From: Chryseobacterium sp. MYb264
GTDB taxonomy: Bacteria; Bacteroidota; Bacteroidia; Flavobacteriales; Weeksellaceae
DNA: 64,000 nucleotides
Direction: 5' to 3'
NCBI RefSeq assembly: GCF_035974275.1
Contig: NZ_CP142422.1
Location: 3,100,001-3,164,000 of the forward strand
The notes under the pieces were generated by a model that ran no database searches, was not told where the DNA came from, and was given only the letters and a program-made list of their open reading frames with translations. The translations under genes were made by a program, and so were the position numbers. Positions 51,686 to 55,778 of this stretch are shown in pieces; the stretch's first letter is position 1; each line of letters begins with the position of its first letter.

Positions 51686-52966
51686 TTAAATACCGAAAGC
51701 GGCTTTAATTTCGTCTACTTTGTCAAGTTTTTCCCAAGTAAAGAACTCTAAACCAGTTAAAGTAATCTCGTTTTTATGTCCTTTATTGAATGTTTTATCA
51801 GCTACATAATGCTCTCTTCCCATATGTCCGTAAGAAGCGGTATCCTGATAAATAGGGTTTCTCAATTTTAAGTTTTGCTCAATAGCATAAGGTCTCAAAT
51901 CGAAAATTGTAGAAACTTTCTTAGCGATTTCACCATCATTAAGACCTACTTTTGAAGTTCCGTAGGTATTGATATATAAACCGCAAGGCTCAGCAACACC
52001 AATTGCATAAGAAACCTGTACCAAAACTTCGTCTGCAACACCTGCAGCTACCAAGTTTTTAGCAATATGTCTTGTTGCATAAGCAGCACTTCTGTCTACT
52101 TTTGAAGGATCTTTTCCAGAGAAAGCGCCACCACCGTGAGCTCCTTTCCCACCGTAAGTATCTACGATGATTTTTCTTCCTGTAAGACCTGTATCTCCGT
52201 GAGGACCACCAATGACAAATTTACCTGTTGGATTGATGTGATATTTGATTTGATCATTAAATAAAGCCTTGATCTCCTCAGTTTGTAAAGCAACCACTCT
52301 TGGAATCAAAATATTTTTAATGTCTTCTCTGATTTTGTTAAGCATTTCTTCTTCAGCTCCGAAATCATCGTGCTGAGTAGAAACTACGATAGAATCAATT
52401 CTTACAGGTTTGTGATCGTCAGAATACTCGATAGTAACCTGAGATTTTGCATCCGGACGAAGATATTTAATTTCAGCATCTTCTCTTCTGATCGCAGAAA
52501 GCTCTTTAAGAATAGTATGGGCCAAATCTAAAGCCAAAGGCATATAGTTAGCCGTTTCGTTGGTTGCATATCCAAACATCATCCCTTGATCACCAGCACC
52601 CTGAGCGTTTGCTTTAGCCTCAAAAGACTCGTCTGTCACCGCTCTGTCAACCCCTTGGTTGATGTCTGGAGACTGCTCATGAATTGCAGAAATAACTCCA
52701 CAAGAATCACCATTGAACATGTATTCTCCTTTCGTGTACCCAATTCCGTTGATAACATCTCTGGCGATGGTTTGTACATCAAGATAAGCATCAGACTTTA
52801 CTTCTCCTGCTAAAACTACCTGCCCTGTTGTAACAAGAGTTTCGCAAGCCACTTTTGAAGTTTTGTCGTATGCCAAAAAGTGATCGATCAACGCATCGGA
52901 AATTTGATCTGCAATTTTATCCGGATGTCCTTCTGAAACAGATTCAGACGTAAATAAGTAAGACAT
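51686..52966 (-). CDS. metK: S-adenosylmethionine synthase
   Basis: A 426-residue MAT. Motifs: [15 protein letters not shown] (N-terminal ATP/methionine site), [15 protein letters not shown] (the GAGDQG loop), and [25 protein letters not shown]. Length is slightly above the E. coli enzyme (384). It makes SAM from ATP and Met. It is preceded by a probable SAM-II riboswitch (53048-53098) and promoter, so its expression is likely feedback-controlled by its own product. Confidence 0.97.
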
Positions 52967-53047
52967 ATTATTCTTTGTTTTTTAGATTTAAAAAATGTTG
53001 ACGAAGAAAAATAAGAATAAATTGCCAGAAAGCTAAAAAGAGAATAC

Positions 53048-53098
53048 TGTTTTAGCATTTTTTTATAGAGGTTGCAATCAGGTCAAATTTTTCCTCGT
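53048..53098 (-). promoter_or_regulatory. Probable SAM-II riboswitch in the metK leader
   Basis: Reading the minus strand, GAGG (from 53096) is followed by ATTTGACCTGATTGCAACC, CCTC closes the stem, and then ATAAAAAAATGCTAAAA follows. This matches the SAM-II aptamer pattern: a P1 stem, a loop with GAUUUGAnCCnnnUUGCAnCC, then AAA-rich bases and GCUAAAA that make the pseudoknot. It lies 82 bases before the metK start. P1 is short here (4 bp by eye). The match is by recall of the motif; a covariance search was not run. Confidence 0.72.
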
Positions 53099-53111
53099 TC
53101 GTAAACGTCAG

Positions 53112-53143
53112 CAAATTTAAGTACTATTTTTTTAATACTCAAA
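53112..53143 (-). promoter_or_regulatory. Bacteroidota promoter of metK
   Basis: On the minus strand TTTG (plus coordinates 53143-53140) and TAAATTTG (53119-53112) are spaced 20 bases apart, a full consensus. It is located just upstream of the riboswitch, so the transcript would begin right before the aptamer. Confidence 0.7.
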
Positions 53144-53207
53144 ACTTTTGTTTACTAATTATAATTTTCTTGAAATTAATGATTTATCAAGCTTTTTCAC
53201 AATGAAA

Positions 53208-54158
53208 CTATTGTGGTTTTATGCTTACAAATTCTTTTGGACTTTCATTATAATTTAGTTTTTTCTCTAATGAAGCCTTAATAGAATGTGATAATTCATC
53301 AATAATTTTCTGCTTAAATGTTGGTTTGTAGTAAATAATACTGATTTCTCTGTACGGGAAAGGCTTCTTGAATCTGAAAACATTTTCCTTCTGCACTTCG
53401 GAAAGCTGGCTTAATGCCAATTCCGGTAAAATACTGATTCCTCCTACTTTATCAACCATATGTACCAGCGTCTGAATATTGGATGCCAGGAAATCAAGGT
53501 TTTTAGGTTTCAGTGTATTTTCCTTTAAATGGCAGATATTTTCAAACTGGTTTCTCAGGCAATTCCCCTCTTCAAGCAACCACACTTTTTCTACATTCAG
53601 CTCTTCAGGAACAACGTAAGAATTTTTTTTGTTTGCTTCGGTATCAGAACTGTAGATCATTAACTCCTCATTAAACAAGAAATCCTGATAAAATTCATCA
53701 GCCGTATCATAAGGCGTTGAGATAATGCCTGCATCCAGTTCACCTGCTTTTAATGCTTTGATGATACTGTCTGTGGTCATTTCTTTCACATTCATCTGGA
53801 TTTTCGGATTTTGCTCTAAAAAGCTAAATATTTCCGTGGGTAGAATAAATGAAGAAACAGTAGGAATAATCCCCAGGTTAATGGTTCCTCCCAGAATATT
53901 ATTTAAGAGATTCGCCTTATTTTTTAATTCATTGACAGATTCTATAATGACCTTTGCCTGATCGATGATCTGAAGCCCCACATCCGTGGTACGAATCGGA
54001 TGTGTTGTTCTGTCAAAAACTTTTACATCCAGTTCATCCTCAAATTTCTGTATCATTGCACTAAGCGTAGGTTGCGTAATAAAGCACGCCTGAGCCGCTT
54101 TACCAAAATGTTTGTACTTATCAACAGCGATAAGGTATTCCAATTGCTGAATGTTCAT
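53208..54158 (-). CDS. oxyR: OxyR-type hydrogen peroxide regulator
   Basis: A 316-residue LysR-type regulator: N-terminal HTH (MNIQQLEYLIAVDKYKHFGKAAQACFITQPTLSAMIQKFE, in parts) and an effector domain with Cys200 and Cys209 in EEGNCLRNQFENICHL. This is the peroxide-sensing pair of OxyR (Cys199 and Cys208 in E. coli). Divergent from katA. It should activate catalase on oxidation of the Cys pair. Confidence 0.93.
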   Translation of the reverse strand: MNIQQLEYLIAVDKYKHFGKAAQACFITQPTLSAMIQKFEDELDVKVFDRTTHPIRTTDVGLQIIDQAKVIIESVNELKNKANLLNNILGGTINLGIIPTVSSFILPTEIFSFLEQNPKIQMNVKEMTTDSIIKALKAGELDAGIISTPYDTADEFYQDFLFNEELMIYSSDTEANKKNSYVVPEELNVEKVWLLEEGNCLRNQFENICHLKENTLKPKNLDFLASNIQTLVHMVDKVGGISILPELALSQLSEVQKENVFRFKKPFPYREISIIYYKPTFKQKIIDELSHSIKASLEKKLNYNESPKEFVSIKPQ

Positions 54159-54178
54159 CTGATTAATATTATCTATTA

Positions 54179-54208
54179 CAAAGATATGATGTTTTTGTAA
54201 TTGACAAT
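54179..54208 (-). promoter_or_regulatory. Promoter of oxyR in the oxyR-katA gap
   Basis: On the minus strand ATTG (54208-54205), an 18-base spacer, and TATCTTTG (54186-54179) form a Bacteroidota-type promoter about 20 bases before the oxyR start. The rest of the 132-base gap (54187-54290) must also hold the katA promoter and OxyR operator, but I could not define them. Confidence 0.5.
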
Positions 54209-54290
54209 TAAAAATTCAAGTAAATTTGATATTTACTACCTTTACATGTTACAATCTAAATAAGAAATCAATCATACAAATCATCACTCT

Positions 54291-55778
54291 ATGGATTCTA
54301 AAAAATTAACGTTAAGTAACGGTGCTCCCTATTACGAACATCAGGACTCACAAACCGTTGGCCCCAGAGGTCCGGTTCTGCTTCAGGACTTCATCCTCCA
54401 GGAGAACCTTGCCCATTTCGTGAGAGAAAGGATTCCGGAAAGAATTGTTCATGCTAAGGGAAGTGGCGCGTATGGGAAATTCACAGTTACACACGATATA
54501 TCAAAATATACAAAAGCAAAACTGTTTTCGCAGGTGGGAAATTCATGCAGAATGTTTGCTCGTTTTTCCACTGTTGGTGGTGAAAAAGGAAGTGCGGATA
54601 CCGCAAGAGACCCCAGAGGTTTTGCCTTAAAATTTTATACTGAAGACGGAAACTGGGATCTGGTAGGAAATAACACCCCTGTTTTCTTTATTAAAGATGC
54701 CAAAAAATTCCCAGATTTTATCCATACCCAGAAGAGAGTTCCAAAAACAAATCTGAAAAGCGCAACCATGATGTGGGATTTCTGGAGCTTAAATCCTGAA
54801 TCTCTTCATCAGGTTCTCATTTTAATGTCCGACAGAGGAACTCCTTACGGTTACAGACATATGCATGGTTTCGGATCTCACACGTTCTCTATGATTAATG
54901 CTCAAAATGAACGAGTTTGGGTAAAGTTCCATTTTAAAACAAAACAAGGCGTAAAAAATTTCAGCAATGAAGATGCGGTAAAAATGGCGGGAGAAAATCC
55001 CGATTTTGCACAGGAAGATCTTTGCAAAGCTATTGAAGAGGGTGATTTCCCAAAATGGACGCTTTTCATTCAGGTGATGACAGAAGAACAGGCCCGCGAT
55101 TTCAGATGGAATCCTTTTGATATCACAAAAGTATGGTTCCATGATGATTTCCCTTTGATCGAAGTCGGAGAAATGGAGCTTAATGAAGTTCCTGTGAATT
55201 ATTTTGCCCATGTAGAGCAATCCACTTTTTCACCGAGCAACTTAATTAACGGAATTAGTTTTTCTCCTGACAAAATGCTTCAGGGACGATTGTTTTCTTA
55301 TCCCGATGCGCACAGATACAGAGTGGGTGTCAATGCACATCACCTGGAAGTAAACCGCTGTCCGTTTGAGGTTAATAATTACCAAAGAGACGGCTATATG
55401 GCAGATTCAAGCCAATATCAGGACAAACCTAATTATTATCCCAACAGTTTTGATGATATCAAGGCTGATTCGTCATACAGAAACTTTGAATATGAATTGG
55501 ACAGCGCGCATGTTGCCAGCTACAATCGCAATGAAAATGATGACGATCATTATACTCAGCCTGGATTATTATATTCAAAAGCTATGAATGCGGCAGAAAG
55601 GGAAAATTTGATCAAAAATATCATCGGCAGCATGAAAGGAATTGACGGGCCGAAGAAAGATGAAATCATAAATCGTCAATTATGTCACTTTTTTAGAGCG
55701 AATATAGAGCTTGGCATGAAAGTAGCTTCCCAGTTAAACGTAAATATTGATGCCAATATGATGAATCATTCAAAATAA
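54291..55778 (+). CDS. katA: Monofunctional haem catalase
   Basis: A 495-residue small-subunit (clade 3) catalase. The distal site is in RIPERIVHAKGSGAYGKFTVTHDI, then DPRGFALKFYTEDGNWDLVGNNTPVFF, and the proximal haem ligand Tyr is in RLFSYPDAHRYRVG. Length fits clade 3. It breaks down H2O2. It is divergent from oxyR. A hairpin terminator follows at 55804. Confidence 0.96.
   Translation: MDSKKLTLSNGAPYYEHQDSQTVGPRGPVLLQDFILQENLAHFVRERIPERIVHAKGSGAYGKFTVTHDISKYTKAKLFSQVGNSCRMFARFSTVGGEKGSADTARDPRGFALKFYTEDGNWDLVGNNTPVFFIKDAKKFPDFIHTQKRVPKTNLKSATMMWDFWSLNPESLHQVLILMSDRGTPYGYRHMHGFGSHTFSMINAQNERVWVKFHFKTKQGVKNFSNEDAVKMAGENPDFAQEDLCKAIEEGDFPKWTLFIQVMTEEQARDFRWNPFDITKVWFHDDFPLIEVGEMELNEVPVNYFAHVEQSTFSPSNLINGISFSPDKMLQGRLFSYPDAHRYRVGVNAHHLEVNRCPFEVNNYQRDGYMADSSQYQDKPNYYPNSFDDIKADSSYRNFEYELDSAHVASYNRNENDDDHYTQPGLLYSKAMNAAERENLIKNIIGSMKGIDGPKKDEIINRQLCHFFRANIELGMKVASQLNVNIDANMMNHSK

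Follow-up and report, generated by a model that had tools for sequence, protein, structure and literature searches.

A long-loop SAM-II riboswitch upstream of metK in Chryseobacterium with a co-evolving spacer as likely anti-aptamer and probable mask of a translation start lacking a Shine-Dalgarno sequence

The metK leader of Chryseobacterium sp. MYb264 contains a SAM-II riboswitch of the RF01726 family, which probably provides feedback control of SAM synthetase: the spacer between aptamer and gene would act as an anti-aptamer, and an arm of this spacer would mask the metK start once it is released. The leader lies on the minus strand of the window, by which we mean the whole stretch of 64,000 nt that was analysed (contig NZ_CP142422.1, positions 3,100,001 to 3,164,000). 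At low SAM levels, the 5' portion of the aptamer would be bound by the pyrimidine-rich arm of the spacer (GAGGAAAAAU with AUUUUUCUUC, and GAUUGC with GCAAUU), and this pairing would be incompatible with P1 and the pseudoknot. When SAM is present, the aptamer would fold first during transcription and free the pyrimidine-rich arm. In this genus the freed arm would then pair with the A-rich, Shine-Dalgarno-less start region at about -9 to +1, and initiation at metK would fall when SAM is plentiful.

We consider the chances to be even that this arrangement extends to the Bacteroidota lineages that keep SAM-II. There, the riboswitch would have been rebuilt as an indirect switch with a fast-changing spacer that tracks the aptamer, dissolves P1 at low SAM and closes the start without Shine-Dalgarno sequence when released, and SAM-I in the same cells would handle methionine synthesis and probably uptake. 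In the literature searched, supplements excluded, we found no account of the platform of RF01726, and an earlier note may exist; little was found on how riboswitches act on translation where, as in this phylum, Shine-Dalgarno sites are lacking. Our analysis suggests that what is new here is the likely switching mechanism through the spacer, in a setting where ordinary ribosome-binding signals are absent. It offers a concrete model of how a translational riboswitch may work without a Shine-Dalgarno sequence, in a conserved case that concerns a single gene, occurs in over 170 genomes and has measurable co-evolution of the spacer.

The initial annotation had described a SAM-II core with a GAGG/CCTC stem. 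The letters agree with this description, and checking the minus-strand leader against the Rfam models gave a strong match: in a cmscan of the whole window with 4227 Rfam families, RF01726 (SAM-II, long loop) was the sole match over threshold, at 53102-53042 of the minus strand (68.1 bits versus a gathering cut-off of 44, E=5.2e-11). The match is complete (model positions 1-60 of 60), and no other Rfam family matched between 52900 and 53220 up to E=1. P1 consists of GAGG (53093..53096) and CCUC (CCTC in the DNA, 53068..53071). The 5' strand of the pseudoknot helix, CUG (53079..53081), pairs with CAG at 53049-53047, which is part of the conserved 3' element GCUAAAACAG (53047..53056). Read directly on the minus strand, the aptamer letters besides P1 are ATTTGACCTGATTGCAA, a run of A and then GCTAAAACAG (53056-53047).

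Both helices were followed in an alignment of 31 genera: of the 38 genera, 33 had an aptamer no longer than 62 nt, and L065 and L096 were excluded for inserts. P1 was paired in 100% of the cells, and its second pair showed a compensatory switch, with U-A in 22 genera and A-U in the other 9. The pseudoknot helix, CUG/CAG in the window, was paired in 67.7% of the cells, about one third being unpaired in the register used, and two of its three pairs showed changes on both sides. For P1 and pseudoknot jointly, none of 500 shuffles matched the observed number of paired cells, the number of cells changed on both sides or the covariation score. Two further counts, of pairs with a change on each side and of pair types, were not above those of the shuffles. 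At the sequence level, P1 and the pseudoknot are both supported by covariation, the pseudoknot less completely, in answer to the check on homologous leaders proposed in the initial annotation. The motifs GCTAAA, ATTTG, TTGC, ACC and AAA were invariant across the alignment (GCTAAA was identical in 31/31 genera) and are all present in the window. In SAM-II, these conserved bases form the binding site. Inserted hairpins between P1 and GCTAAA were seen in the leaders L068, L069, L071-L076 and L078, probably from Flavobacteriaceae, and these leaders reach RF01726 scores of just ~48-52 bits.

A promoter immediately before the aptamer had also been claimed, and exactly this arrangement, TTTG-N20-TAAATTTG, was read at 53143-53112 of the minus strand. 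The upstream element TTTG (53140..53143) is located 20 nt before the -7 box TAAATTTG (53112..53119), which follows the flavobacterial sigma-A consensus TAnnTTTG as given in the accessible text of PMC9723704. Since this source reports TAnnTTTG at -12..-5 in F. psychrophilum, the RNA start is expected near 53107, about ten bases 5' of P1. In the 40 nt that precede the aptamer, TAnnTTTG was present in 113/113 unique genus-type leaders and in 29/38 genera, compared to 1/113 and 1/38 in the control stretch at -100..-61.

The gene 3' of the aptamer (51686..52966, minus strand, 426 aa) matches the methionine adenosyltransferase model TIGR01034 with 507.4 bits versus a cut-off of 309.4, which bears out metK as the target. 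The last conserved bases of the aptamer, CAG, end at 53047, 80 nt before the metK ATG (52966), and the Rfam match ends at 53042, 75 nt before it, in agreement with the distance of about 80 bases given in the initial annotation. The spacer in the window is AU-rich and 75-80 nt long. Window positions 53208-55778, next to the 5' end of the metK leader, also contain a gene for a LysR-family regulator, which has the orientation of metK and is divergent from a catalase gene; its best library match was OxyR, below the cut-off.

The distribution of RF01726 was determined in four overlapping genome sets. Matches were found in 173/173 genomes of the genus (172 over cut-off), in 52/59 genomes of relatives (52 over cut-off), in 44/295 genomes of a class sample (38 over cut-off) and in 45/296 genomes of a phylum sample (41 over cut-off). 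When named genomes were scanned with a sequence pattern, 97 stretches matched, and 77 of the 80 matches listed were from Chryseobacterium. A metK start motif was located 3' of the aptamer in 212/215 fetched loci, many of them duplicates from a genome that was fetched two times. The remaining three, L037 and L041 (cut by contig ends) and L091, a weak sub-threshold match, were dropped before counting; L091 is a second RF01726 match in genome G010 (31.5 bits) with no metK after it, and was left out. The notion that SAM-II before metK is notable in a flavobacterium did not hold. Its interest as an alpha-proteobacterial element in a flavobacterium fails because RF01726 is already known from Bacteroidetes: the portion of Weinberg 2010 available to us (PMC2864571) lists it as 'SAM-II long loops', 'Bacteroidetes, marine', and every genome of the genus has a match. 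The sensor is ordinary for this bacterial group, and the aptamer itself is already known.

With the sensor established, the question of the output arises. According to the accessible part of a recent review (PMC10907184), SAM-II is classed under 'direct occlusion', the textbook mode, in which, as in metX-type SAM-II, the ribosome site would lie within the pseudoknot. The spacing in our leaders speaks against it: CAG at the aptamer end is followed by the AUG at the distance given above, and the TTGC element is positioned 79-185 nt before the ATG in 94/95 loci (111 nt in the window), the 95th locus (L025) falling outside this range for a start codon picked too far upstream. Furthermore, none of the 113 genus-type leaders had a Shine-Dalgarno-like motif (GGAG, GAGG or AGGA) in the last 20 nt before the start, and such motifs were absent from this stretch in 37/38 genera. 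Unless metK is translated from another start, this spacing is enough to refute direct occlusion, and we give it next to no chance. The initial annotation had stated that control is not by the usual masking of the ribosome site. This is correct for direct occlusion; it overlooks the indirect route, in which the released anti-aptamer spacer can pair with the start.

The start region itself is A-rich and lacks a Shine-Dalgarno sequence (52966..52979, minus strand, from base -13 through the A of AUG). For F. johnsoniae, RNA structure and A residues at -3, -6, -12 and -13 are reported to adjust the level of initiation (PMC6847099, in the text accessible to us). All four of these initiation-promoting A positions are present upstream of metK in the window.

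We analysed the spacer by per-sequence folds and swap tests. The 212 leaders were merged to 169 unique ones, 55 of which were non-redundant at <80% similarity, and two lineage sets, with 38 leaders (one per genus) and 22 leaders (one per family), were chosen by hand. All folds rest on thermodynamics, with neither the pseudoknot nor the kinetics of transcription taken into account. In the unconstrained fold of the window leader, ACGAGGAAAAAU of the aptamer (53087..53098) forms a helix of 12 bp with AUUUUUCUUCGU of the spacer (53012-53001), and GAUUGC (53074..53079) forms a second helix of 6 bp with GCAAUU (53025-53020), all on the minus strand. These two helices use up P1 and the 5' side of the pseudoknot. 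In the unconstrained ensembles, the 5' strand of P1 was paired downstream of the aptamer with a probability >0.5 in 34/38 genera and in 101/113 genus-type leaders, and at least 8 aptamer bases were paired with the spacer in 32/38 genera and in 112/113 genus-type leaders. Four of the 38 genera failed the probability cut and six failed the 8-base cut; the outer anti-aptamer helix was missing in L062, one of 15 leaders drawn. Compared to dinucleotide-shuffled spacers, the natural downstream sequence paired better with the aptamer (p<0.05) in 26 of the 55 non-redundant leaders (Fisher 3.6e-19), with p=0.015 for the window leader.

The spacers were also swapped between leaders. The 5' part of the aptamer paired better with its own spacer (excess -2.66 kcal) in 21/22 families (p=5e-5, the lowest value attainable with 20000 permutations) and in 36/38 genera; for the whole aptamer the own spacer was better in 19/22 families and 36/38 genera. 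Shuffled spacers gave a mean excess of -0.02 (sd 0.35), with 0/60 reaching the observed value, and the DNA upstream of the RNA gave an excess of +0.02. From the excess of own pairs over swapped, shuffled and upstream-DNA controls it follows that the spacer tracks the aptamer in evolution. Such matching can also be seen by eye: in L024 and L093 the spacer is complementary to the GGATTTGGC variant of these leaders, and in L032 it is complementary to GAGTAG. The role of the spacer as an anti-aptamer that co-evolves with the aptamer is, as judged from sequence, well supported.

Co-evolution was not detected between the spacer and GCUAAA (swap test, p=0.13 per genus and 0.66 per family). A hairpin of GCUAAAA with a downstream UUUUAGC, which visual inspection suggested for the window and for several of the probable Flavobacteriaceae leaders (group f3), was considered as a platform. 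It was dropped because it is missing from many members of the genus and because GCUAAA showed no co-evolution with the spacer. From an alignment of 113 leaders, RNAalifold recovered no structure beyond P1 and one short inner stem; for the locked state it returned nothing, and it gave no support for the model. We judged this result to be uninformative in view of alignment gaps and near-invariant sequence, and for this reason per-sequence folds and swap tests were used in its place.

To describe the SAM-bound state, we used folds with a locked aptamer as a stand-in and calculated the energy needed to open the stretch from -14 to +3 around the start. In these folds, a U/C-rich arm of the spacer (53001..53020, minus strand), which would be able to pair with the start region when released, was found in two registers, UUAUUCUU at 53020-53013 or UAUU/UUCUU at 53013-53004. 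Locking the aptamer raised the opening cost in the window from 3.1 to 6.1 kcal. A rise of >0.5 kcal was seen in 109/113 genus-type leaders (the opposite in none) and in 26/38 genera (the opposite in two). Over the 38 genera, the rise was 1.70 kcal versus 0.35 kcal with shuffled spacers (Wilcoxon p=1.6e-5; p<0.05 singly in 12/38). For the genus, every third of the 113 leaders was taken, and these 38 closely related leaders gave 3.47 versus 0.96 kcal, with p<0.05 singly in 19. For the window alone, the rise of 2.96 kcal versus 1.14 kcal in shuffles was not significant (p=0.10). In two leaders, L063 and L168, a different stretch of the spacer forms a mask of ~10 bp in the locked fold; among the 15 leaders drawn, L060 and L074 had no start mask when locked.

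The masking may be due to a U-rich spacer opposite an A-rich start and not to selection, because the locked state was more closed than in shuffles at p<0.05 in just 4/38 genera. In the swap test, the preference of the start region for its own spacer was marginal, with p=0.00035 over 38 genera and p=0.051 over 22 families, and 9/60 shuffles reached the observed value. Among the 55 non-redundant leaders, pairing between start and spacer reached p<0.05 in 12, with p=0.12 for the window. Within the genus, the own spacer was better in 5/11 start-region types (p=0.15), and covariation gave no backing to the pairing of arm and start. On the basis of the locked folds, masking of the start appears to be the likeliest output, covariation giving no proof of it.

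The main rival to start masking is Rho-dependent termination. Riboswitches can use Rho. In this case the SAM-folded aptamer would free the spacer, which is U-rich, poorly structured and contains more C than G, as a loading site for Rho, and the anti-aptamer would hide this site at low SAM. The spacer had C>G in 38/38 genera and was poor in G (mean 0.11), sequestration by the anti-aptamer would fit equally well, and Rho would account for those genera that show no start masking on a locked aptamer. However, the C>G bias also follows from complementarity to the purine-rich strand of the aptamer, and we regard termination by Rho as rather unlikely, while taking it seriously. An intrinsic transcription terminator 3' of the aptamer, as predicted for SAM-II of S. 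meliloti metZ (PMC9373788) and for many proteobacterial SAM-II (PMC2258182) in the sections of these papers that we could use, would be another way to end transcription. A simple consensus scan revealed no terminator-like site at 52900-53220 and sites in 0/38 genera versus 0.4 in shuffles, so that intrinsic termination is unlikely as output, and indeed very improbable in our estimation. The SAM-bound structure could instead block or expose RNase sites and alter the stability of the RNA with initiation unaffected. A change of mRNA stability is described in the available text for the SAM-II of S. meliloti metA (PMC9373788); by itself, such control would not explain the co-evolution of spacer and aptamer, and we consider it improbable.

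Start masking through a released spacer can be compared to the control exerted by known SAM riboswitches. RF01726 of Weinberg 2010 has the same aptamer (68.1 bits, full length) and comes from the same phylum; there is no aptamer difference, and the control region after the aptamer is not described in the part of that paper accessible to us (PMC2864571). The metX/metA-type SAM-II of alpha-proteobacteria (RF00521) shares P1, the H-type pseudoknot, SAM as the expected ligand and the feedback on methionine/SAM. According to the accessible part of PMC10907184, the metX riboswitch has its ribosome site within or beside the pseudoknot, and its P1 is protected whether or not SAM is bound. In the metK leader, by contrast, 80 nt separate the aptamer from the start, and P1 is predicted to be dissolved by the anti-aptamer. 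A search of this genome with RF00521 gave no match, the same model being also silent in all 14 controls. As far as the available text of PMC9373788 shows, S. meliloti metZ SAM-II also has an indirect platform 3' of the aptamer; its output is a predicted intrinsic terminator, while none was seen here. For the SAM-II of S. meliloti metA, an action on translation is predicted in the same text. The indirect platform without Shine-Dalgarno sequence described here, which is probably translational, would be unlike both the metX-type and the S. meliloti SAM-II.

SAM-I riboswitches commonly work through an indirect platform. SAM-I (RF00162) senses SAM like SAM-II but with a different aptamer, and in this genome it precedes metX-like and TonB-dependent receptor genes and not metK. 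Three SAM-I riboswitches (67.6-80.3 bits) were found in the same genome outside the window, all on contig C1 of genome G000: one before a TonB-dependent receptor gene (3310041-3310147, L216), one before a gene for a metX-like acyltransferase (4093541-4093648, L217) and one before a gene for a SusC-like receptor (3915275-3915372, L218). The best NCBIfam scores of the metX-like gene were below their cut-offs. Both SAM-I and SAM-II were present in 47/59 relatives. In four relatives the two riboswitches are divergent, 66-136 nt apart, and flank a shared stretch (G045, contig C2, 100719-100942; G048, C1, 210772-211065; G055, C8, 82739-82979; G057, C28, 31664-31888).
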